43,063 nucleotides of DNA from Bacteroidales bacterium (GTDB lineage Bacteria; Bacteroidota; Bacteroidia; Bacteroidales; P3): positions 1 to 43,063 of the forward strand of contig JAFWQP010000090.1 in NCBI GenBank assembly GCA_017509045.1, written 5' to 3'. The stretch's first letter is position 1. Each line of letters opens with the position of its first letter. The position numbers and the translations under genes were made by a program. Below are positions 3,974 to 38,780 of this stretch, piece by piece. Under the pieces are notes generated by a model that worked only from the letters and a program-made list of their open reading frames with translations, was not told the DNA's origin and did not search any database.

Positions 3974-4005
3974 TCCCAACCCTCTCTCCACCTTTTCTTT
4001 TATAC

Positions 4006-4116
4006 TTATCCTATCGTTATACCTTAGTTATACTTTAGTTATACCTTAGTTATTCTATATATAATAGTATAACTAAGGTATAACTAAAGTATAACTAAGG
4101 TATAACGATAGGATAA
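4006..4116. repeat. Long palindrome with 11-bp iterons, copy 1
   Basis: Two 53-base arms (4006-4058 and 4064-4116) pair at 52 of 53 positions around an ATATA loop. Each arm holds tandem 11-bp units of the form GTTATACYTTA and ends with TTATCCTATCG. Two further copies lie at 28069-28183 and 36452-36566. The copy sits in the 490-bp gap between the divergent blaI-like and porin-like genes, between possible promoters for each, so it is not placed as a transcription terminator. The rest of that gap (3813-4005 and 4117-4247) shows no gene. Confidence 0.95.
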
Positions 4117-4247
4117 CTAAAGAATGAGTAGGGGATTGTATAGTGAGAATGTGGGGTTGATTTGGGTAGGACAATAGGTCGGGCGGAAACGGCTTATTGG
4201 TAGAGGGAGATGGGGCATCGACATGGAAAAATCATCATTTTTAGGTA

Positions 4248-8424: not shown

Positions 8425-10623
8425 ATGAAAAAAAACAGTGTTTTGCTTATGGTGCTGGTGGTGGTAGTACTCGCTGCCGGCACCATTGTTGAAAAGTTGT
8501 CCGGCACAGAAGTTGCGTCGTCGGCAGTGTATAACTCGTGGTGGTTTATCCTACTATTGGCATTAGTGGGGGTAAGTGCCATTGTTGCCATTGTGCGCCA
8601 CAAAATGTGGCACACTCCTTACCAACTGTTGCTTTATGGGTCGGTGGTGGTCATCCTGTTGGGTGGAGGACTCTCCACTTGGACGGGCAGTCGTGGCAGT
8701 ATGACGCTACAGAAAGGTGTACCGAACAATGTATTTGCAAATGAGAACGGCAAGGAATATAGGCTGCCTTTCACTGTCACGCTAGAACGGTTTGAAGTGG
8801 TCACGTATCCGGGTTCGCATGCTCCGATGGACTTTGTGAGCCATATTTCAGCCGGAGGCGAAAGGGCCGTCATCTCAATGAACAACATCTATAAGCGGAG
8901 AGGTTACCGCTTTTATCAAGAAGACTATGATGCCGAGGGCAACTCTACGCTTAGTGTTTCGCACGACCCACTAGGCATCGCTGTCACATACTCGGGGTTC
9001 CTGCTGCTGATTGTGGGATGTATACTTATGTTCCTTTCGCCCCGGTCGCACTTCCGTAAACTGCTTAGAGGACTGCCGCTGCTACTCCTGCTTATGGGGG
9101 CAACGTCGGTGTTCGCCACTCCATCCACCTTACCACGCCATACTGCTGACCAGATGGGACGCATTCAGGTACTCTACAATGGGCGAGTGTGTCCGTTGCA
9201 AACCCTTGCCAAAGACTTTACCACAAAACTCTATGGCAATGCCACATATCAGGGGCTTTCATCCGAACAGGTGCTCAGCGGTTGGATATTCTATTATGGC
9301 GAATGGTGCGAAGAGCCTGTCATCAAGATTAAAGGCGACCATACACGTCGACAACTAGGCATGGAGGGACGTTACACCTCATTGAATAACCTATTGGCTC
9401 ACCAATCCATCTTCGAGGGTAAACCTTACTCCAAGGAAATGGCGGCAGTGAATGAAAAGGTGAGTTTGGTGCAAATGGTTGCAAATAGTAAACTGCTCAA
9501 AATCTATCCCCTTACCGACACTTTGGGCACTCTGGGCTGGTATTCGCAAAACGATGCACTACCACTTAGTGTCGATGACGATGCCTATATGTTTGTTCGC
9601 AAACAATTGGGCTATTGTCAAGAACTGGTGGTGAAGGGCGACTTTGAGACGCTCGAAATGGTTTTCGACAAGACCTGCCAGTATCAGCAGAAGCAGGCAG
9701 CCGCAGTCATCCCATCGGCTGCGCGCATAGGAGCAGAACGGCTCTATAATGCCCTTACTACCGGACGTTGGCTTGCTATGTTGGTGATGGCGCTAGGCAT
9801 TCTGTTTTTTGCACTCAATGTTTTTGATAAATCGAGAACAGAGGTCATGTCACACAGTGATTGCACTATGCCGAGGCGACAAAACGTCTGTTACGAAGAA
9901 ACGAACCTTTATGCCATAGGAAACGGTGGCAAGAAGATAGTTCATCAACGTATAGCTATCGTGTTAGTTGCCTTGCTTACCCTCTTTGTGTTGCTTGTCA
10001 TCGCATTACGCTGGATTGCAGGTGGTCATGTTCCTATGGCTGGCGGTTTCGATAGTATGAACCTCATGACGGTGATGTTGGGCATAGTGGCTCTTTGTGC
10101 CTCCTGGCGTCATCCTGCTGCGCCCTCCGTCAGCTTGTTGGCGATGGGATTCTGTCAGTTGGTAGCGATGATGAACGGCTCCAATCCTCCCGTTACGCAC
10201 CTGATGCCAGTCCTTAACTCACCGTTGCTGTCACTGCATGTCACCATCATCATGATTGCTTATGCGCTGTTCCTATTTGTGATGCTGAGCAGTGTGGCTG
10301 CACTCATTCTGCCCACACAGCGTGTGCTGCTCGAGCGCACCAACCTCTTGTTGCTATATCCTGCGGTGACGTTGTTGTCGATAGGTATCATTATCGGTGC
10401 CGTTTGGGCGAACGTGTCGTGGGGTAACTACTGGTCGTGGGATCCTAAGGAGGTCTGGGCACTCATAACCCTTATTGTCTATCTCTATCCTCTTTATATG
10501 GCACGCAAAGAGAGGCATTCCCATACACTGTTTCATTTCTATTGCGCAGTGGCATTCCTCAGTGTTGTGATAACCTATTTTGGGGTAAACCTCATCCTAG
10601 GAGGTGTGCATGCTTACAACTAG
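8425..10623 (+). CDS. Fused ResB/CcsB-CcsA-type cytochrome c biogenesis protein
   Basis: This 732-aa inner-membrane protein carries haem to the outside and joins it to CxxCH apoproteins (System II). The N-terminal half is ResB/CcsB-like, with membrane segments at about 5-25, 35-55, 68-85, 175-195 and 215-230. The C-terminal half is CcsA, with the tryptophan-rich haem motif WGNYWSWDPKEVWAL and flanking His residues (SLHVT and the final GGVHAYN). It is the last gene of the cluster, so its likely customer is the two-haem protein encoded just upstream. Residues 465-494, in the loop between the two halves, are encoded by a 90-bp repeat that also occurs in rsmI. Confidence 0.9.
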   Translation: MKKNSVLLMVLVVVVLAAGTIVEKLSGTEVASSAVYNSWWFILLLALVGVSAIVAIVRHKMWHTPYQLLLYGSVVVILLGGGLSTWTGSRGSMTLQKGVPNNVFANENGKEYRLPFTVTLERFEVVTYPGSHAPMDFVSHISAGGERAVISMNNIYKRRGYRFYQEDYDAEGNSTLSVSHDPLGIAVTYSGFLLLIVGCILMFLSPRSHFRKLLRGLPLLLLLMGATSVFATPSTLPRHTADQMGRIQVLYNGRVCPLQTLAKDFTTKLYGNATYQGLSSEQVLSGWIFYYGEWCEEPVIKIKGDHTRRQLGMEGRYTSLNNLLAHQSIFEGKPYSKEMAAVNEKVSLVQMVANSKLLKIYPLTDTLGTLGWYSQNDALPLSVDDDAYMFVRKQLGYCQELVVKGDFETLEMVFDKTCQYQQKQAAAVIPSAARIGAERLYNALTTGRWLAMLVMALGILFFALNVFDKSRTEVMSHSDCTMPRRQNVCYEETNLYAIGNGGKKIVHQRIAIVLVALLTLFVLLVIALRWIAGGHVPMAGGFDSMNLMTVMLGIVALCASWRHPAAPSVSLLAMGFCQLVAMMNGSNPPVTHLMPVLNSPLLSLHVTIIMIAYALFLFVMLSSVAALILPTQRVLLERTNLLLLYPAVTLLSIGIIIGAVWANVSWGNYWSWDPKEVWALITLIVYLYPLYMARKERHSHTLFHFYCAVAFLSVVITYFGVNLILGGVHAYN
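9817..9906 (+). repeat. 90-bp coding repeat, copy 1 (inside the CcsBA-type gene)
   Basis: The 90 bases align without gaps to 16431-16520 (minus strand) with 72 identities. The match starts and stops sharply: AAYGTTTTYGATAA at one end, AAACGAAC at the other. It begins on a codon boundary and is 30 codons long, so it adds 30 residues (465-494; pattern NVFDKxRxE, then CTxxRRxNVCxExTN) without shifting the frame. It lies in a loop between membrane segments, a place where extra residues are easily tolerated. Confidence 0.85.
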
Positions 10624-11728: not shown

Positions 11729-11802
11729 TCGGGGCGAAAAGACTCGAACTTTCGACCCCTTGCACCCCATGCAAGTGCGCTAGCCAACTGCGCCACGCCC
11801 CG
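11729..11802 (-). tRNA. tRNA-Pro (anticodon GGG)
   Basis: A 74-nt cloverleaf can be drawn fully: acceptor CGGGGCG/CGCCCCG, D arm GCGC/GCGC, anticodon stem CTTGC/GCAAG with loop ATGGGGT (GGG at 34-36 and G at 37, as usual for Pro), five-base variable loop, T arm GAAAG/CTTTT with loop TTCGAGT, and discriminator A. The CCA end is not encoded. The gene has its own promoter and terminator. Confidence 0.95.
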
Positions 11803-16424: not shown

Positions 16425-17183
16425 TTAATCGTTCGTTTTTTCGCAACAGACGTTTTCTCGCCTCAAGTTAGTGCAACCATTGAGTGATTTGCCCTCTGCT
16501 CTCGGCTTATCGAAAACGTTGGTTCCTGCCAACACTACTACAATTTCGCCTTTTACATCGCAATTGGCAAAGTGCTGATGAACTTGGTGTAAAGGCCCTC
16601 TAACTGTTTCAGCGTGCAACTTGCTTATTTCGCGCGATACACTCACTTCCCTTTCTTCTCCGACAACGTCTCTCAGATCTTCTAATAGTTTGACCAGTCG
16701 GAAAGGCGATTCGTATATGACCATCGTCCTTGTTTCTTGTTCTAATTGGCGGATGGCGGTCTGGCGGCCTTTTTTATGGGGAAGGAATCCTAAGAACACA
16801 AATCTGTCGCAGGGTATCCCGCTGTCGACTAATGCTGGCACAAATGCTGTTGCCCCAGGCAGTGTCTCGACGGGTATGTCGTTCTTGACAGCTTCGCGTA
16901 TCAGCAGAAACCCGGGGTCGCTAATGCCGGGTGTGCCAGCATCAGTAACCAATGCAATAGTCATCCCGCCCAGCAGGCGGTCAATGATATTATGTAGTGT
17001 CTGGTGTTCGTTGTGAATGTGGTACGACTGCATGGGAGTGGTTATGCCATAGTGTTGCATCACCACTCTCGACGTGCGTGTATCTTCGGCAAGTATCAGG
17101 TCTGCTCCTTTCAGCACCTCGACGGCACGATAGGTCATGTCGCCGAGGTTGCCTACAGGGGTGGGTACAAGGAATAGTTTCAT
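16425..17183 (-). CDS. rsmI: 16S rRNA (cytidine1402-2'-O)-methyltransferase RsmI
   Basis: RsmI methylates the 2'-OH of C1402 in the ribosomal decoding centre. The 252-aa protein starts with LFLVPTPVGNLGDMTYRAVEVL and has ADLILAEDTRTS, the SAM pocket ALVTDAGTPGISDPG and the block VFLGFLPHKKGR, all typical. The normal domain ends with KGEIVVVLAG at about 220. The last 31 residues are encoded by a 90-bp repeat (16431-16520) plus one Asp codon before TAA, so the natural C-terminus has apparently been replaced or extended. Its start codon overlaps the yebC stop by 1 bp (TAATG). Confidence 0.95.
   Translation of the reverse strand: MKLFLVPTPVGNLGDMTYRAVEVLKGADLILAEDTRTSRVVMQHYGITTPMQSYHIHNEHQTLHNIIDRLLGGMTIALVTDAGTPGISDPGFLLIREAVKNDIPVETLPGATAFVPALVDSGIPCDRFVFLGFLPHKKGRQTAIRQLEQETRTMVIYESPFRLVKLLEDLRDVVGEEREVSVSREISKLHAETVRGPLHQVHQHFANCDVKGEIVVVLAGTNVFDKPRAEGKSLNGCTNLRRENVCCEKTND
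16431..16520 (-). repeat. 90-bp coding repeat, copy 2 (3' end of rsmI)
   Basis: This is the second copy of the repeat at 9817-9906: gap-free, same length, 72 of 90 bases identical, and read in the same protein frame. It supplies RsmI residues 222-251. This copy contains an inverted pair, ACGTTTTC near its start and GAAAACGT at about two thirds, and an inner CTCAA/TTGAG pair, so it is partly palindromic. Confidence 0.85.
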
Positions 17184-21920: not shown

Positions 21921-22071
21921 CGAAAAAAAATGAAAATGAAAATCGAAAATAGAAATTATTACACAATGACGTCCCAATTTAGGATTTCCGATTGTTTATT
22001 CCCACCTTTCGGTAAGGATATGTCTCACCTTCCCTTGGAACAATACGTGGATGATTTGTGGTGTTTTTTTT

Positions 22072-22263
22072 AGGTGGGTTCTATAAATTGCTTTCAAGAG
22101 ATTTCGAGACTGGTTTTGAGCAGATTGTTGGCTTTCATGAAGGAATGATGCGGTGCATCATGACTGAATGAAAGTCAGCAAGATGACAAAAACAGGCCGA
22201 AATCTCAGAAAAGTATGTAATAAAGCTTTTATTGTTCATACGTGGAATTTATAGAACCCACCT
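22072..22263 (+). mobile_element. MITE-like element, copy B (complete, 192 bp)
   Basis: Perfect 18-bp terminal inverted repeats (AGGTGGGTTCTATAAATT at 22072 and its complement ending at 22263) bound 192 bp with no coding capacity. A central nested hairpin lies at 22145-22161 (ATGATG CGGTG CATCAT) with an outer CTTTCAT/ATGAAAG stem. It lies in the gap between the T9SS cargo gene (22 bp past its stop) and the kinase promoter. T-rich flanks hide any target duplication. Its partner is the inverted copy at 1-181. Confidence 0.85.
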
Positions 22264-24121: not shown

Positions 24122-26176
24122 TCAATCCTCCACATCCTGCACCAGCCGCACCGAGCAGCGGGTCAGCCGCTCCAGCGGCATGAGGAAGGCGCTCCTGCCC
24201 ACGGCAAAGCACATCCCGATAGCGTTCCGTTTGTCGTTGTGGATGGTTGTCCAATAGTAGCCTACCTGTTCTTTGCCTTCCATCGGAGGGGCGTAGTTGC
24301 TTTTTGTGGCAAAATCATTTTCTGCCCCAGTTGCCACGTCGTCGTCGCCATGCCCATTCGTGAAATCGGTAGTGCAATTTGCCACCTTTGCCATGGTGCT
24401 TACGCTCTCGTGCACCATGGGTATCTGTGTCCCATAGCCCACGTTGTATCCCTCTATGGGGGCACTATTCTTGATGGGGTTGGAGGCATACGCCAACGCT
24501 GCCACATAATTCATCATCTTGCACATGCCCGCGGCAGGCAGAAACACAGCTCCGGCGCGCTCCATGACCTGCCATTGCTCGGGTGTGAAGAGGTAGATGG
24601 TGCTGAAGTGCAGGGTGTCGAACCCTCGTTTCAGCCAGTTGTCGGGCAGCACCACCAATCCCTGCACACCGTTCACCTGCCCCATGGTGCGTAGCAGCCA
24701 CGCGTCGGGGCGCCCTGTCAGCAGGTAGTCCCACTCATACACGCTCAGTGTGCGCCACATCCCCTCACGATTGCCCCCGTTGTTTATGCGGTTATACACG
24801 CCCCAGTCATAGCTGGTACCATCGATGTTCTTGTCCGCACCATTGCCGTAGTAGGCCGAATTGAGCGAAAAGTAGTAAGGATATTTCTCGCGGTATCCGC
24901 TCGTGCCCCAGGCAAACAGGTCTATCCATCCCGCATATTTTTCGCCGTAGCGTATATTGTCCTCGCCTATCAGGTCGTACTGCTTGTCAGCAAAACGCCA
25001 TTGCCCCGCCACCGCGTTGTATTGCAGGTTGCCTGCCGAGAAACGCACCTGTTTTTCAGGCGCTATGCTGAACACTCCTTCCAGCACCCCCTGCGCCATG
25101 CGTGCCGCAGCCTGCGTGGTGGTCGAACTGTATATCTTTTCGCCCACAATCGAGTCGATGATATATTGGTTGGGCATCCACACCGTCCCCTCGTTGGCGG
25201 TGGATTTATCTTTCTTGTCCGCGTCCAGTGCCAGCCTGAACCCTAGTACGCTCAGCTTTATCCATGGCACCCAAAGGTTTCGGTACGATATACGCAGGTC
25301 TTTCGCCTCGTCGGTCCACGACCCACCGCGTCCCACGCGGCATTCTCCTGTGGCAGGACCTCTGGGATTGAGCACTTCCTCGTCAAATTCGCTGTCTTTC
25401 AACAGCAATATGGCGTCGTTAACGCCAGGATGTGACTGCAGCCGCCCGGTGTTCATTAACCATATCAAGAGCCCATCTTCGCTTTTTATATGGGCGGGCA
25501 TATCCAGTGCTTTAGCCACCTGCCATGCGTATTCGATGTCGCGATACCAGTCGTTGCACCATTCCCACACATTGCCCGTCATGTCGTATAGCCCTAGCTC
25601 GTTAGGTACCAGGCCTCCCACCGTATGGGTCGAGTCGCCGCTGTTCACTTGTCCCCAGCCTACCTTCATAGCATCGGCTCCGCCCGCGAAGATGTAGCCG
25701 CCCGAGTGCCGGCCCCCGCGTGCCGCATATTCCCATTCTGCCTCTGTGGGCAGGCGGAAATGGTAGCCTGTCAGGCTGTCGAGTTTGCGGATAAACTCTT
25801 TCACCTCGATGTAGCTCACCTGTTCCACAGGAAGGTCGTCCCCCTTGAAGTTGGAAGGATTGTAGCCCATCACCGTCTCCCATAGACGCTGCGTCACCTC
25901 GTATCGCCCTAGGTAATAGTTGTCCAATCTCACAGCGTGTGAAGGGAATTCGTCGTATTTCCCTGGATTAAGTTCATGCACACCTGCGAATGTTGCGGTC
26001 GAGGGCGCTTCTGTGTTGTAATAAGGCTCGCAACCCATCATAAACGAGCCGCCCTGCACCCACACCATGTCAAACTTGCAGTCGCCCACCACAAAGGTCA
26101 TCGTCTTTTGCTTGGTTTGAGCTGCCAGCCATGTGGTCAGCAATAGAAAGACAATTATTGGTAGACTCCTTTTCAT
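24122..26176 (-). CDS. SUMF1/FGE-like domain protein, paralogue 1
   Basis: This 684-aa exported protein has a signal peptide (to about LAAQ, residue 20). Residues about 33-320 are a formylglycine-generating-enzyme-like (SUMF1) domain: VQGGSFMMGC, RYEVTQRLWETVMGYNPSNF, FRLPTEAEWEYAARGG, LYDMTGNVWEWCNDWY and GRGGSW...GFRLAL. True FGEs have two catalytic Cys after RGGSW; none is present here, so it is probably not a sulfatase-activating enzyme. The second half (about 370-684) resembles the Fibrobacter major paralogous/DUF1566-like lectin-type fold, ending YYWTTIHNDKRNAIGM...SVRLVQD. It follows rsmG with a 10-bp gap. A full-length paralogue is encoded at 36723-38780. Confidence 0.8.
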   Translation of the reverse strand: MKRSLPIIVFLLLTTWLAAQTKQKTMTFVVGDCKFDMVWVQGGSFMMGCEPYYNTEAPSTATFAGVHELNPGKYDEFPSHAVRLDNYYLGRYEVTQRLWETVMGYNPSNFKGDDLPVEQVSYIEVKEFIRKLDSLTGYHFRLPTEAEWEYAARGGRHSGGYIFAGGADAMKVGWGQVNSGDSTHTVGGLVPNELGLYDMTGNVWEWCNDWYRDIEYAWQVAKALDMPAHIKSEDGLLIWLMNTGRLQSHPGVNDAILLLKDSEFDEEVLNPRGPATGECRVGRGGSWTDEAKDLRISYRNLWVPWIKLSVLGFRLALDADKKDKSTANEGTVWMPNQYIIDSIVGEKIYSSTTTQAAARMAQGVLEGVFSIAPEKQVRFSAGNLQYNAVAGQWRFADKQYDLIGEDNIRYGEKYAGWIDLFAWGTSGYREKYPYYFSLNSAYYGNGADKNIDGTSYDWGVYNRINNGGNREGMWRTLSVYEWDYLLTGRPDAWLLRTMGQVNGVQGLVVLPDNWLKRGFDTLHFSTIYLFTPEQWQVMERAGAVFLPAAGMCKMMNYVAALAYASNPIKNSAPIEGYNVGYGTQIPMVHESVSTMAKVANCTTDFTNGHGDDDVATGAENDFATKSNYAPPMEGKEQVGYYWTTIHNDKRNAIGMCFAVGRSAFLMPLERLTRCSVRLVQDVED

Positions 26177-27752: not shown

Positions 27753-28445
27753 GGCTGCTTTTTATATTACACCTTCTTTTTCTATCCTAGATAACGACAA
27801 AAATCGAAAAAAGTTTCACTAAAACAAACTTTTTTTTCTTAATTAATCCATATCGCTCATTCCTAATACGAAACATTTAGCTTTCAAGAGGTGTGACTCC
27901 AATATTTTTCTCTCGCCCTCGAAGTTCATACTTTGACAAAGTTTTTCCACGAATCACGCGCAAATTATTCATGAATCAATTCGTGTTAAAATGATGATAA
28001 TTCGTGTTTGACATCAAATCAATTTTCAAGTTGATAAGTTTTCAATTTCCAACAGCCCTTGCTTCAGTATATATCCTATCGTTATACCTTAGTTATACTT
28101 TAGTTATACCTTAGTTATACTATATATAATAGTATAACTAAGGTATAACTAAAGTATAACTAAGGTATAACGATAGGATATATGAAAAAAAGGTTATGGT
28201 GGAATTAGAAGGTTATTTATGAGTGTGATAAGTGTGCTTCTAAAGTTGCAGTAGAGTAAACACTTGTTATGGCATAAAGAGACCTGAAAAGTGATAAAGG
28301 ATATAAAAGTCGGCTTAATGACCGATTCTTGTACTTCTTGGGGTACAGGATTTGAGCTGGCGTGAGTTTTATCGGCGATGGGGGAGTGGGAGCGGTGGGT
28401 GGATGTGGGCGTGAATCTTTTTTCGAATGAATGAAATATTATGTG
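27753..28445. other. Long divergent intergenic region between rpoD and ribF
   Basis: About 700 bp without a convincing gene. It holds the second copy of the long palindrome (28069-28183). At about 27950-28015 there are short repeats of AATTCGTG/CACGAAT type. A weak A/T-only hairpin (AAAAAAGTTT/AAACTTTTTT) lies at about 27807-27835. Frames crossing 28194-28472 on the minus strand are shadows of ribF. Confidence 0.6.
28069..28183. repeat. Long palindrome with 11-bp iterons, copy 2
   Basis: Arms of 55 bases (28069-28123 and 28129-28183) pair perfectly around ATATA. The core is the same as in copies 1 and 3 except for one base in the left arm, which restores a T/T mismatch to an A/T pair. The outermost bases differ between copies but still pair here. 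It lies between the divergent rpoD and ribF genes. Confidence 0.95.
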
Positions 28446-36381: not shown

Positions 36382-36451
36382 TTTTTATTCCTGCTACAGT
36401 GCGATAATCGCTTTGCTCATTCTCTCCTATTTTTTTCCGCATGTCTTTTAT

Positions 36452-36566
36452 ACTTATCCTATCGTTATACCTTAGTTATACTTTAGTTATACCTTAGTTA
36501 TTCTATATATAATAGTATAACTAAGGTATAACTAAAGTATAACTAAGGTATAACGATAGGATAAGT
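36452..36566. repeat. Long palindrome with 11-bp iterons, copy 3
   Basis: Arms of 55 bases (36452-36506 and 36512-36566) pair with one T/T mismatch around ATATA. It shares its left flank (CTTTTATACTTATCC) with copy 1. It lies between divergent ffh and the SUMF1-like gene, about 70 bp upstream of the ffh promoter. Confidence 0.95.
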
Positions 36567-36635
36567 GCTGAACGAAGGGGGCGGAATTGAAGGCTCTAGT
36601 ATGGCTTTGGGGTTGGAGGTTTTTTATTGTATTTC

Positions 36636-36722: not shown

Positions 36723-38780
36723 ATGAAGAAAGTTGCTATAATCGTCTGTTTATTAGGATTGTTGATGGCAGGGTGGGATGTTGAGGCGCAAGGGCTGTTC
36801 GGCGGCCGGAAGCGCAATAAGGCACGCATCGAGCGTGCGGCCAAGAAAAAAACGGGAACACTGCCCATAATGGTGAAGAGTGAGAAGTTTGAGATGGTGT
36901 TGGTGCGAGGCGGCTCGTATATGATGGGGTGCGACCCCGAGTTTTGGGGCACTTCGGTAAGCCCATATTCAAATAGATTCTTTTATGGCGTAAACAAGGG
37001 TACTTCGGTGCTGGACAACAAGGAGAGGGGCAAGAACGACGAGGTGCCTCGACACGGTGTGTCGGTGGGCAGTTTCTATATGGGGCGCTATGAGGTGACG
37101 CAGGCGTTGTGGAAGGCTGTTATGGGCTACAACCCTTCGAACTTTGTGGGCGACGAGCTGCCTGTGGAGCAGGTGAGTTTCGATGAGGTGCAGACCTTTA
37201 TCACGCGGCTGCGGGAGTTGACGGGGCTGCCTTTTCGTCTGCCTACGGAGGCGGAGTGGGAATATGCTGCCCGAGGGGGTGCGGAGGCGAAGAGCACAAC
37301 GTATGCAGGATCGGATGATTTGATGCATGTGTCGTGGACACAGCTTAATAGCGGTGATTCTACCCACATAGTGGGCGGGTTGGTGCCTAACGAATTGGGC
37401 TTGTATGATATGACAGGCAATGTGTGGGAGTGGTGCAGCGACTGGTATGCCGACGACACTTACGCGTGGGATGTGGCATCGCACTATGACGTTCCCGCCA
37501 GAGTGAAAAGCCGACAGGACTTATATCAGTATTGGGTGGATATAGGCGAGGAGCGTAATATCATGGAGAGTATTGACGAAACCGTCTCGCCCAAGGGCCC
37601 CACCAGCGGGACGACAAAGGTGGGCCGAGGAGGCTCGTGGGCTGACGTGAAGGAGGATGTGAGGGTGTCGTATCGCAACTTTTGGCAGCCTAATATGCGG
37701 TTGAGTGTGTTGGGATTTAGGCTGGTGTTGTCGGCCGACAGTGTGCCTGCGTCGGGGTGGATGCCTAACCAGTATGTGTTGGATTCGTTGGTGGGAGGGA
37801 AGGCTTACTCGTCGATGACTTCGGAGAGTGTGGCACGGCTGGCCAACGGGGTGCTGGAGGGTGTGTTCAGCGTGTCTCCCACACAGCAGGTGCGTTTCTC
37901 GAAGGGCAACCTGCAGTACAACGCGGTGGCGGATCAGTGGCGTTTTGCCGAAAGGCAATACGACATCATTGGATTTGACAATGTGGAGTTTGGTAAGCAA
38001 TATGCGGGGTGGATTGACTTGTTTGCCTTTGGCACGAGTGGCTACCGCGATAAGACGCCCTACTTTTTTTCGGCACAGAATGCCAGCTATGGCAACGGCA
38101 ATCGCAATATCGACAGGACGAGCTATGACTGGGGCGTTTACAACGCTATCAGCAATGGCGGTAACCGTGTGGGGCAGTGGAGGACGCTGTCGGTGAACGA
38201 GTGGGCGTATATGTTGATGCGGCGACCTAATGCGGAGAAGCTGATGTCGCTTGCTTCGATAAACGGCCACCAAGGAATGCTGCTGCTGCCCGACGACTGG
38301 CTTGAAACGGGAGGCGACACATTGCGTGAAGGGGTGGTGTATCTGTTCAGTACAAAGCAGTGGGGTGTGATGGAACGTGCAGGGGCAGTGTTTTTGCCGT
38401 GTGCGGGGTATGCTAAGATGATGTGCTACTATTATGGTGTGCCCCTACCCGGGCAGGAGGAGACGTTGATACCGATGTTCAACACCGGGCTAGGACATAG
38501 TCTGGGTAGGTTTGCGTCTGCCAGCATGATGCCAGAAGAGGCAGAGCAGGCCGTAGGGGGAGGACTCATGAATGACACACAGGCAAGGTGGGAGGCATTG
38601 AAAAACTACCGTCCGCCAGTGGAGAGCAACGAGGGTATGGGGTATTATTGGACAACTATCCATTACAACAAGGAGACGGCTTTGGGCTACTGTTTCACTT
38701 CTGAAAGGCTGGGCTATATCTTACCCTTGGAGCGGCTGACGCGGATGTCGGTGCGTCTGGTGCAGGACGTGGGGAATTGA
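36723..38780 (+). CDS. SUMF1/FGE-like domain protein, paralogue 2
   Basis: This 685-aa exported protein is homologous over its full length to the product of 24122-26176 and almost identical in size. It has a signal peptide (to about VEAQ, residue 23), then a basic stretch (GGRKRNKARIERAAKKK), and then the SUMF1 domain with VRGGSYMMGC, RYEVTQALWKAVMGYNPSNF, FRLPTEAEWEYAARGG and GNVWEWCSDWY. The RGGSW block again lacks the FGE catalytic cysteines. The second half carries VRFSKGNLQYNAVADQWRF and ends YYWTTIHYN...SVRLVQD. The stop codon TGA lies within the terminal repeat of the element at 38777-38891. GldJ/GldK-like roles are possible for this fold, but both proteins lack a lipobox. Confidence 0.8.
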   Translation: MKKVAIIVCLLGLLMAGWDVEAQGLFGGRKRNKARIERAAKKKTGTLPIMVKSEKFEMVLVRGGSYMMGCDPEFWGTSVSPYSNRFFYGVNKGTSVLDNKERGKNDEVPRHGVSVGSFYMGRYEVTQALWKAVMGYNPSNFVGDELPVEQVSFDEVQTFITRLRELTGLPFRLPTEAEWEYAARGGAEAKSTTYAGSDDLMHVSWTQLNSGDSTHIVGGLVPNELGLYDMTGNVWEWCSDWYADDTYAWDVASHYDVPARVKSRQDLYQYWVDIGEERNIMESIDETVSPKGPTSGTTKVGRGGSWADVKEDVRVSYRNFWQPNMRLSVLGFRLVLSADSVPASGWMPNQYVLDSLVGGKAYSSMTSESVARLANGVLEGVFSVSPTQQVRFSKGNLQYNAVADQWRFAERQYDIIGFDNVEFGKQYAGWIDLFAFGTSGYRDKTPYFFSAQNASYGNGNRNIDRTSYDWGVYNAISNGGNRVGQWRTLSVNEWAYMLMRRPNAEKLMSLASINGHQGMLLLPDDWLETGGDTLREGVVYLFSTKQWGVMERAGAVFLPCAGYAKMMCYYYGVPLPGQEETLIPMFNTGLGHSLGRFASASMMPEEAEQAVGGGLMNDTQARWEALKNYRPPVESNEGMGYYWTTIHYNKETALGYCFTSERLGYILPLERLTRMSVRLVQDVGN

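Follow-up and report, generated by a model that had tools for sequence, protein, structure and literature searches.

A dispersed palindromic repeat family of a rumen Bacteroidales genus, with in-frame copies in genes for CcsBA and RsmI

Background

The stretch of DNA analysed here, called the window throughout, comprises 43,063 nucleotides of contig JAFWQP010000090.1 (positions 1 to 43,063, forward strand) from the Bacteroidales bacterium assembly GCA_017509045.1. Two of its genes, one encoding a CcsBA-type cytochrome c assembly protein and the other the methylase RsmI, each carry a copy of the same short repeat, which adds 29 amino acids to two unrelated proteins and leaves their reading frames unbroken. 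A first-pass annotation of the window had proposed that the shared segment was a small mobile or duplicated element, comparable to the Rickettsia palindromic elements (RPEs), that inserts into genes and keeps an open frame. Here we describe the repeat in its own genome and in related genomes, its structure and its insertion site, and we weigh explanations of how it came to lie in coding sequence.

Repeat copies and host genes

The two copies in the window are identical at 72 of 90 bases and are read in the same frame (Table 1). Their 60-bp flanks match at only 15 of 60 positions on either side, so both edges of the repeat are sharp. The first-pass annotation had given the coordinates, the identity, the common frame and the abrupt ends of the match, and all of these proved correct on re-reading. 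An AAC triplet flanks the element on both sides, and tandem copies have this triplet in common, as in the pair at C28:48670-48846 of the same genome, where the period is 87 bp and one AAC belongs to both units. The net insertion is therefore 87 bp, or 29 codons, and not 90 bp. The peptide encoded by the element is NVFDKSRTEVMSHSDCTMPRRQNVCYEETN in the CcsBA-type protein, where it follows ...ILFFAL in what reads as a linker between two hydrophobic stretches, and NVFDKPRAEGKSLNGCTNLRRENVCCEKTN near the C-terminus of RsmI. The rsmI copy is not internal, being located two codons ahead of the stop.

Table 1. Coordinates in the window of the two repeat copies, their hairpins and the genes that hold them
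Feature	Position	Strand	Remarks
Element copy 1	9817..9906	+	in frame within CcsBA-type gene; net insertion 9817-9903 (87 bp), closing AAC 9904-9906
Hairpin 1, copy 1	9819..9886	+	long imperfect palindrome; model columns 3-70
Hairpin 2, copy 1	9889..9902	+	small tail hairpin, inferred from repeat family
CcsBA-type cytochrome c assembly protein, ResB/CcsA fusion	8425..10623	+	host gene of copy 1; 732 aa, intact frame
Element copy 2	16431..16520	-	in frame at rsmI 3' end; net insertion 16434-16520, closing AAC 16431-16433
Hairpin 1, copy 2	16451..16518	-	long imperfect palindrome, modelled
Hairpin 2, copy 2	16435..16448	-	inferred from repeat family
rsmI (TP_methylase)	16425..17183	-	host gene of copy 2; 252 aa; element supplies 29 residues before final ND

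Orthologues of both proteins were without the peptide. Among 351 CcsBA relatives found, 80 were kept, and the insert was present in none of these (0/80). Their linkers are short, for example ILFALTLSVSGNKAKGRHIYSRIA, compared with ILFFAL[NVFDK...ETN]LYAIGNGGKKIVHQRIA in the window protein, so that removing the 87 bp leaves an ordinary linker. The closest named relatives by CcsBA were Bacteroidales metagenome-assembled genomes, many of them from ruminants, with a top identity of 74%. RsmI was identified in the genome of the window and in 60 relatives; its end was read at 30 loci, and no tail derived from the element was found in the 29 relatives read (0/29). Without the element, RsmI of the window would end in ...VVVLAGTND and a stop, at about the usual length of its relatives. 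The loop in CcsBA is thus extra when aligned with its relatives, and absence from orthologues, which the first-pass annotation had predicted, was observed for both proteins.

Distribution of the repeat family

A blastn search with the 90-mer gave 20 matches at E<=0.001 in the genome of the window (2.71 Mb, 154 contigs), several of them in tandem or at contig ends, and the resemblance between the two window copies is therefore not due to chance. A covariance model built from 20 chosen copies found 88 matches in the same genome, or 65 and 80 under stricter filters. When the blastn search was extended to 61 genomes, including that of the window, 12 were carriers. All 12 lie within the 37 genomes of the same genus, and no carrier was found among the 24 genomes of other genera. 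The model was positive in 47 of 59 genomes of the genus (that of the window included), with counts per genome from 0 (12 of the 59) up to 69. In a 41-genome sample of the order it found the genome of the window and, weakly, 3 of the 40 from other genera (9, 1 and 1 matches; best E 8e-6). The search of the whole genome and its relatives suggested in the first-pass annotation thus turned up further copies in both, and its small, mobile, palindromic, RPE-like element is borne out by many copies, by their presence in different genes in the same frame and by their absence from orthologues.

The covariance model also picks up a diverged second group in the genome of the window (AACGTTGTATAAGG..., ~73 bp). 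In a genome of another family (G086), nine weak matches are spread over contigs C2, C4, C7, C13 and C18, two of them 76 bp apart, and may represent a distant sister repeat. Several arrays in the genome of the window (G000; L003, L006, L012, L232 and L233) adjoin a second, longer multi-copy intergenic repeat with segments of 0.3-0.8 kb at 77-95% identity. One 88-base copy had no match in phage or plasmid records, and a single contig of a viral collection (L324) was matched, by two of three exact patterns.

Structure of the repeat

The sets of copies used below (163, 109, 97, 98 and 79) differ by the flank needed, the E-value and whether a tail was recognisable, with copies at contig ends dropped. 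The 5' edge, AACGTTTTCG, is sharply defined across 109 non-redundant copies, and the 3' part is assembled from modules; the copies span 73-120 bp, mostly 89-90. Hairpin 1, a long and imperfect palindrome of 68 nt whose tip is variable and itself palindromic, has 22 pairs in the model. For covariation, 123 matches (105 distinct) from chosen loci were used. Pairing in hairpin 1 was 97.2% of 2283 cells in the 105 distinct rows, compared with 35-48% when the partners were slid by 1-3 columns, and this figure alone says little because the columns are conserved and still pair at 94.3% after letters are shuffled within them. Both sides had changed in 13 of 22 pairs, against a shuffled mean of 3.7 and with 13 reached in 0 of 500 shuffles, figures that lean upwards since the alignment was fitted to the model and the rows are related.

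The tail forms a small second hairpin, often with GAA or AAA as its loop, whose stem varies by subfamily (CAT/ATG, CCTT/AAGG, GTTTC/GAAAC, GGTT/AACC). Stems of at least 4 were present in 63% of 68 distinct tails versus 16% of shuffled tails, and stems of at least 3 in 71% versus 54%. After hairpin 1, CGTC is found in some subfamilies only, and CGAG, CGAC or CGGC in others. A function as RNA from one strand would be expected to give an excess of G.U over A.C; outside one loop-closing pair the stem mismatches were 41 G.T and 32 A.C, so that neither strand is clearly favoured, and this possibility was set aside. Rfam gave no match at either window element (E<=1).

Insertion site and net length

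Three kinds of paralogous empty site were found in one relative (G028). They read GAATAA-AACG-AATTTTTAG, with filled counterparts at L165 and L253; CACGAATCT-AACG-AATTTATT, with filled counterparts at L239, L243 and also L238; and CACGAATCT-AAC-TACGAATGG, with a filled counterpart at L244. In each kind, the filled form differs from the empty one by the unit alone, which has AAC on both sides, with nothing lost. The flanking AAC may have been duplicated from the target, or the target may match the element's own end. The close relatives G021 and G027 (95% identity in the rsmI region) yielded no orthologous empty site, and in G021 divergence prevented the use of a paralogous one. A different repeat of ~250 bp (query L176:1128-1389) matched each of these two genomes at roughly 40 places.

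Net size was 71-87 bp in 76 of 79 measured copies. Copies with a GCGAAG tail had net lengths of 87 (26 copies), 86 (7), 75 (4) and 81 (3), with 3 others, and this is the only type whose length is usually a multiple of three (33/43). Copies with GAAAAC, CAT and CTT tails were mostly 83 bp (27/36). Insertion of whole subfamilies of net 83 or 86 bp would thus shift the frame.

Position relative to genes

Genes other than those of the window are also touched by the repeat. In a GSCFA protein (PF08885) of G011 the element is read in frame 0, and among the matches listed only that of G011 runs unbroken across it, those of relatives breaking there. A 72-bp unit is read in frame 0 (NVFGKPRAE...) in a tyrosine recombinase on the 5.3-kb contig of the viral collection, a Pfam-supported open reading frame (ORF) identified by its domain only. 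This contig encodes two adjacent tyrosine recombinases with arm-binding domains (L324:2202-4756, minus strand), the first of which has the element near its N-terminus. Frame-0 readings at the C-terminus were found in two more genes, for a RecN-like protein (L264) and a PIF1/HRDC helicase (L261). Three of the six frames of the consensus are open, and the readings through the element that are supported by domain or relatives number six, all in frame 0. The ORFs that enter the element in the third frame (L165, L259, L282, L285) and those in frame 0 at L255 and L260 had no Pfam family and were not counted as genes, and the ORFs around L012, L171, L278, L002 and L164 had no support beyond the ORF itself.

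Read in another frame, the element ends translation after 14 nt and yields protein tails ending in -[E/Q]RFR. Five such proteins have a Pfam match, namely AAA_14/DUF4143 (L101), UDP-galactopyranose mutase (L258), alpha/beta hydrolase (L262), DegT aminotransferase (L272) and NUDIX (L289). The AA or A of the element also completes TAA or TGA stops (L262 twice, L257, L291). The stop of a sense ORF lay at or within the element in 14 of 98 copies, and that of an antisense ORF in one, weakly (L286). The gene at L101 was considered as one interrupted by the element and was withdrawn, as its best relatives (61-62% identity) reach no further than query residue 458, ahead of the element; it is better read, judging by these alignments, as a probable landing at a gene 3' end. 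At this locus (L101:1501-1800, G028:C1) frame 0 stays open for ~75 residues past the element (VESGVATAWLTDMQGRREEVRL...), within a 119-aa open frame.

The position of the copies was compared with that of AAC triplets in the same loci, using ORFs of at least 120 codons and 98 non-redundant copies flanked by 600 bp or more. By these simple ORF-based gene calls, in which overlapping loci may count twice, only 12 of the 98 copies lay within ORFs (9 sense and 3 antisense, with orthologue support for CcsBA and GSCFA only) versus 3715 of 5908 AAC triplets, so that copies are depleted in genes. The remaining copies lay near or over a gene 3' end (46) or elsewhere (40). A preference for gene 3' ends was examined and was not clear, since the AAC background outside ORFs is similar: 46 of 86 copies and 982 of 2193 AAC triplets were near 3' ends, and sense outnumbered antisense among copies (35 to 18) as it did among triplets (759 to 282). 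Neither a 3'-end bias nor a sense bias therefore clearly exceeds what an AAC target would give.

The in-frame copies differ from the family consensus at 12 (CcsBA), 8 (rsmI) and 11 (GSCFA) bases. By codon position 1/2/3 the substitutions were 3/5/4, 2/5/1 and 4/4/3, respectively, and 4 of 27 changed codons were synonymous. With no third-position excess in the three copies, conservation of the peptide is unsupported and it bears no sign of selection; in CcsBA the frame has nevertheless stayed open. The proposal that the element inserts into genes and keeps an open frame thus holds in part. In-frame copies exist, but they are a minority, and the subfamilies of net 83 and 86 bp would not preserve the frame. 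Selection, rather than any property of insertion, best accounts for the open frame, and the in-frame copies look like a tolerated minority. The main idea of the first-pass annotation was right overall, and its emphasis on genes was too strong.

Comparison with known repeat families

The closest parallel is with the RPEs, repeats of 100-150 bp in Rickettsia according to PMC3767692, a concept also covered in PMC10969869. Like RPEs, the present repeat is palindromic, has many dispersed copies and lies in frame in some unrelated protein genes (CcsBA, RsmI and GSCFA by comparison with relatives, the tyrosine recombinase by domain). It differs in host (Bacteroidales), in net length (71-87 bp), and in its AAC-flanked tandem units with two hairpins, and is set apart by description from the RPEs as these sources present them. 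RPE sites are described as shared among Rickettsia orthologues, whereas the confirmed insertions here were each observed in one species.

Repetitive extragenic palindromic sequences (REPs) of the GTAG and CGTC superfamilies are 20-40 bp long, have stems of 5-13 bp and carry GTAG or CGTC as a tag; they are dispersed hairpins that can donate stop codons and lie in some cases within ORFs (PMC3733652). The present repeat shares the latter traits. It differs in the size of hairpin 1 (22 pairs modelled in 68 nt), whose palindromic tip varies, in its second small hairpin and in having no link to REP-associated tyrosine transposases (RAYTs), and its length and tag are not those of REPs. The enterobacterial repeat units RU-1/2/3 resemble miniature inverted-repeat transposable elements (MITEs) and can form open reading frames within annotated genes; at 103-168 bp and in enterobacteria they are set apart by their description in PMC2759123. 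BrickBuilt, a MITE of Porphyromonas gingivalis, is likewise a small Bacteroidales repeat with a minisatellite component, to judge from the title of reference 32 in PMC10969869, but is strictly intergenic by the description in that article. No earlier account of an element of this kind from Bacteroidetes, Bacteroidales or the rumen was found among the titles and abstract openings listed from the open-licence literature.

The repeat is small, dispersed and without a protein of its own, as a MITE would be. Mycobacterial interspersed repetitive units (MIRUs) are similar in forming tandem units at gene junctions that overlap stop codons, and differ in phylum and sequence. Since the repeat fits neither the length and tag of REPs nor the host and length of RPEs, we class it as a separate family of the same kind. 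The family is real and resembles RPEs, REPs or MITEs in behaviour, and the concept itself is already known.

Mechanism and alternative explanations

We consider it very probable that the two window copies belong to one family of mobile palindromic repeats, short and non-autonomous, which is found in a rumen Bacteroidales genus and inserts at AAC, and that those in CcsBA and RsmI are tolerated in-frame survivors. The unit comprises AAC, the long hairpin and the small hairpin as modelled, followed by AAC. It inserts precisely at an AAC triplet and leaves AAC on both sides, as the three kinds of paralogous empty site in one relative show, and the shared AAC of tandem copies is consistent with a new unit joining the AAC end of an old one. 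Depletion inside ORFs points to insertion that does not seek genes, with selection removing harmful events. The usually 87-bp subfamily, with its stop-free sense frame NVFDK..., could then survive in coding sequence where the AAC codon it lands on belongs to a loop or a C-terminus, and CcsBA and RsmI would be two such cases, with the peptide a tolerated spacer rather than a functional domain. An enzyme acting in trans probably moves the repeat.

Several observations weigh against this explanation, in addition to the gene calls behind the depletion figure and the high pairing of shuffled columns. For the window copies the empty state is seen only at the protein level, and the clean empty sites come from one genome with repeated flanks and are hence paralogous. 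The pair L225/L230 in the genome of the window is less clean: the empty form is GCCCCGAAGCATCACC and the filled form GACCTC[AACG...GTAAC]ATCACC, and the empty site reads GCCCCGAAGC in place of the expected AAC. Divergence was too great to fix the junction in the filled and empty pairs at L109, L292 and L107. A fourth matching base (NAAC duplication) occurred in 17 of 36 non-tandem copies versus 16.4 expected, which gives no support to a 4-bp target duplication across all copies, so that the AAC repeats may be either duplication or part of the element. No gene-breaking insertion was demonstrated, the only candidate, L101, having been withdrawn, and purifying selection is therefore deduced from depletion. 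No mobilising enzyme was found by a search for PF01797 (Y1 transposases) in 61 genomes or by eye in six stretches between copies; PF01797 was present in 47 of the 61 genomes without relation to the element.

As to how the repeat moves, a classical MITE is a doubtful but arguable alternative, and the one to which we give most weight. The repeat would then have arisen by deletion from an insertion sequence (IS) and be mobilised by a DDE transposase; its ends would be short terminal inverted repeats (in the G028 subfamily, GTTTTC...GAAAAC), and its insertion would duplicate 3-4 bp of target. The AAC on both sides in the comparison of empty and filled sites fits this, as does a match of the base before it in 6/6 non-tandem copies of the G028 subfamily, which represent about two target types; the terminal repeat is however only ~6 bp and is not conserved in the CAT-tail subfamily, and no parent IS was recognised in the six stretches between neighbouring copies, inspected by eye without a family search. 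A REP/RAYT-type system, with hairpins recognised as single-stranded DNA by a Y1 (HUH) transposase in trans and inserted 3' of AAC, appears unlikely. It would explain the dispersed imperfect palindromes, the tandem groups and the stops given to upstream ORFs, traits described for REPs in PMC3733652, and the mismatch counts suit a hairpin at the DNA level at least as well as an RNA from one strand. Against it, association with a RAYT is unsupported because PF01797 does not track the element: it is missing from G006 and G017, both carriers by blastn, it has a single match in each of two copy-rich genomes, G013 (weak) and G028, and among the contigs listed only C6 of the window's own genome has both a Y1 match and a copy, ~9 kb apart and with weak copies. 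Length, stem and tag are also unlike those of GTAG and CGTC REPs, and gene 3' ends are not clearly favoured.

If the repeat spread by ectopic gene conversion or template switching, at micro-homology flanked by AAC, no dedicated enzyme would be needed, and the palindrome would be kept by hairpin-templated correction. Tandem arrays and modular tails accord with such a process, and hairpin-templated correction could likewise yield paired changes; clean single insertions at unrelated sites, as in CcsBA and GSCFA, are hard to make in this way, and we regard the process as improbable. It is scarcely credible that both proteins recruited the 30-residue peptide as a common functional motif, for example to bind haem or metal through cysteine. 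Cys and Arg residues are common to the window copies, but orthologues do without the peptide, most copies lie outside ORFs, and the substitutions are spread over the codon positions as given above. Within the explanation by AAC-inserting mobile repeats, a more far-reaching suggestion is that the repeat, by landing on TAAC or AAC close to stop codons, remodels protein ends and loops time and again and is a standing source of C-terminal variation throughout the lineage, giving unrelated proteins -[E/Q]RFR tails (five Pfam-supported proteins) or an NVF.K... tail or loop (six proteins), and is moved by a system that is neither a RAYT nor a recognisable IS; we put this forward as speculation that is probably wrong in at least some part.

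Other features of the window

The window contains three copies of a ~130-bp near-perfect palindrome (3985-4138, 28050-28203 and 36433-36586), with arms of 55-61 nt that are 93-100% complementary and separated by 5 nt; they consist of TAACTAAGGTATAAC-like units. Two of the palindromes had Rfam miRNA matches, which fell far under gathering scores and are probably spurious. A 184-bp inverted pair (1-184 and 22069-22252) is 97% identical, one copy being at the extreme end of the window. Two ORFs of ~685 aa in opposite orientation (24122-26176, minus strand, and 36723-38780, plus strand) share several DNA segments at 70-79% identity and are a probable duplicated pair. A tRNA gene was found by Rfam at 11729-11802 on the minus strand.

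Conclusion

Coding-tolerant palindromic repeats are best known from Rickettsia, with reductive genome evolution as a possible reason for their tolerance. Within one genus, the rumen Bacteroidales family has species rich in copies and species with none, together with empty sites and pairs of proteins that occur in nature with and without the insert. For annotation it carries a warning, as NVFDK... tails and -RFR ends of proteins in this group can derive from the repeat. Such material allows tests of how often and where proteins accept such elements, and of what moves them.

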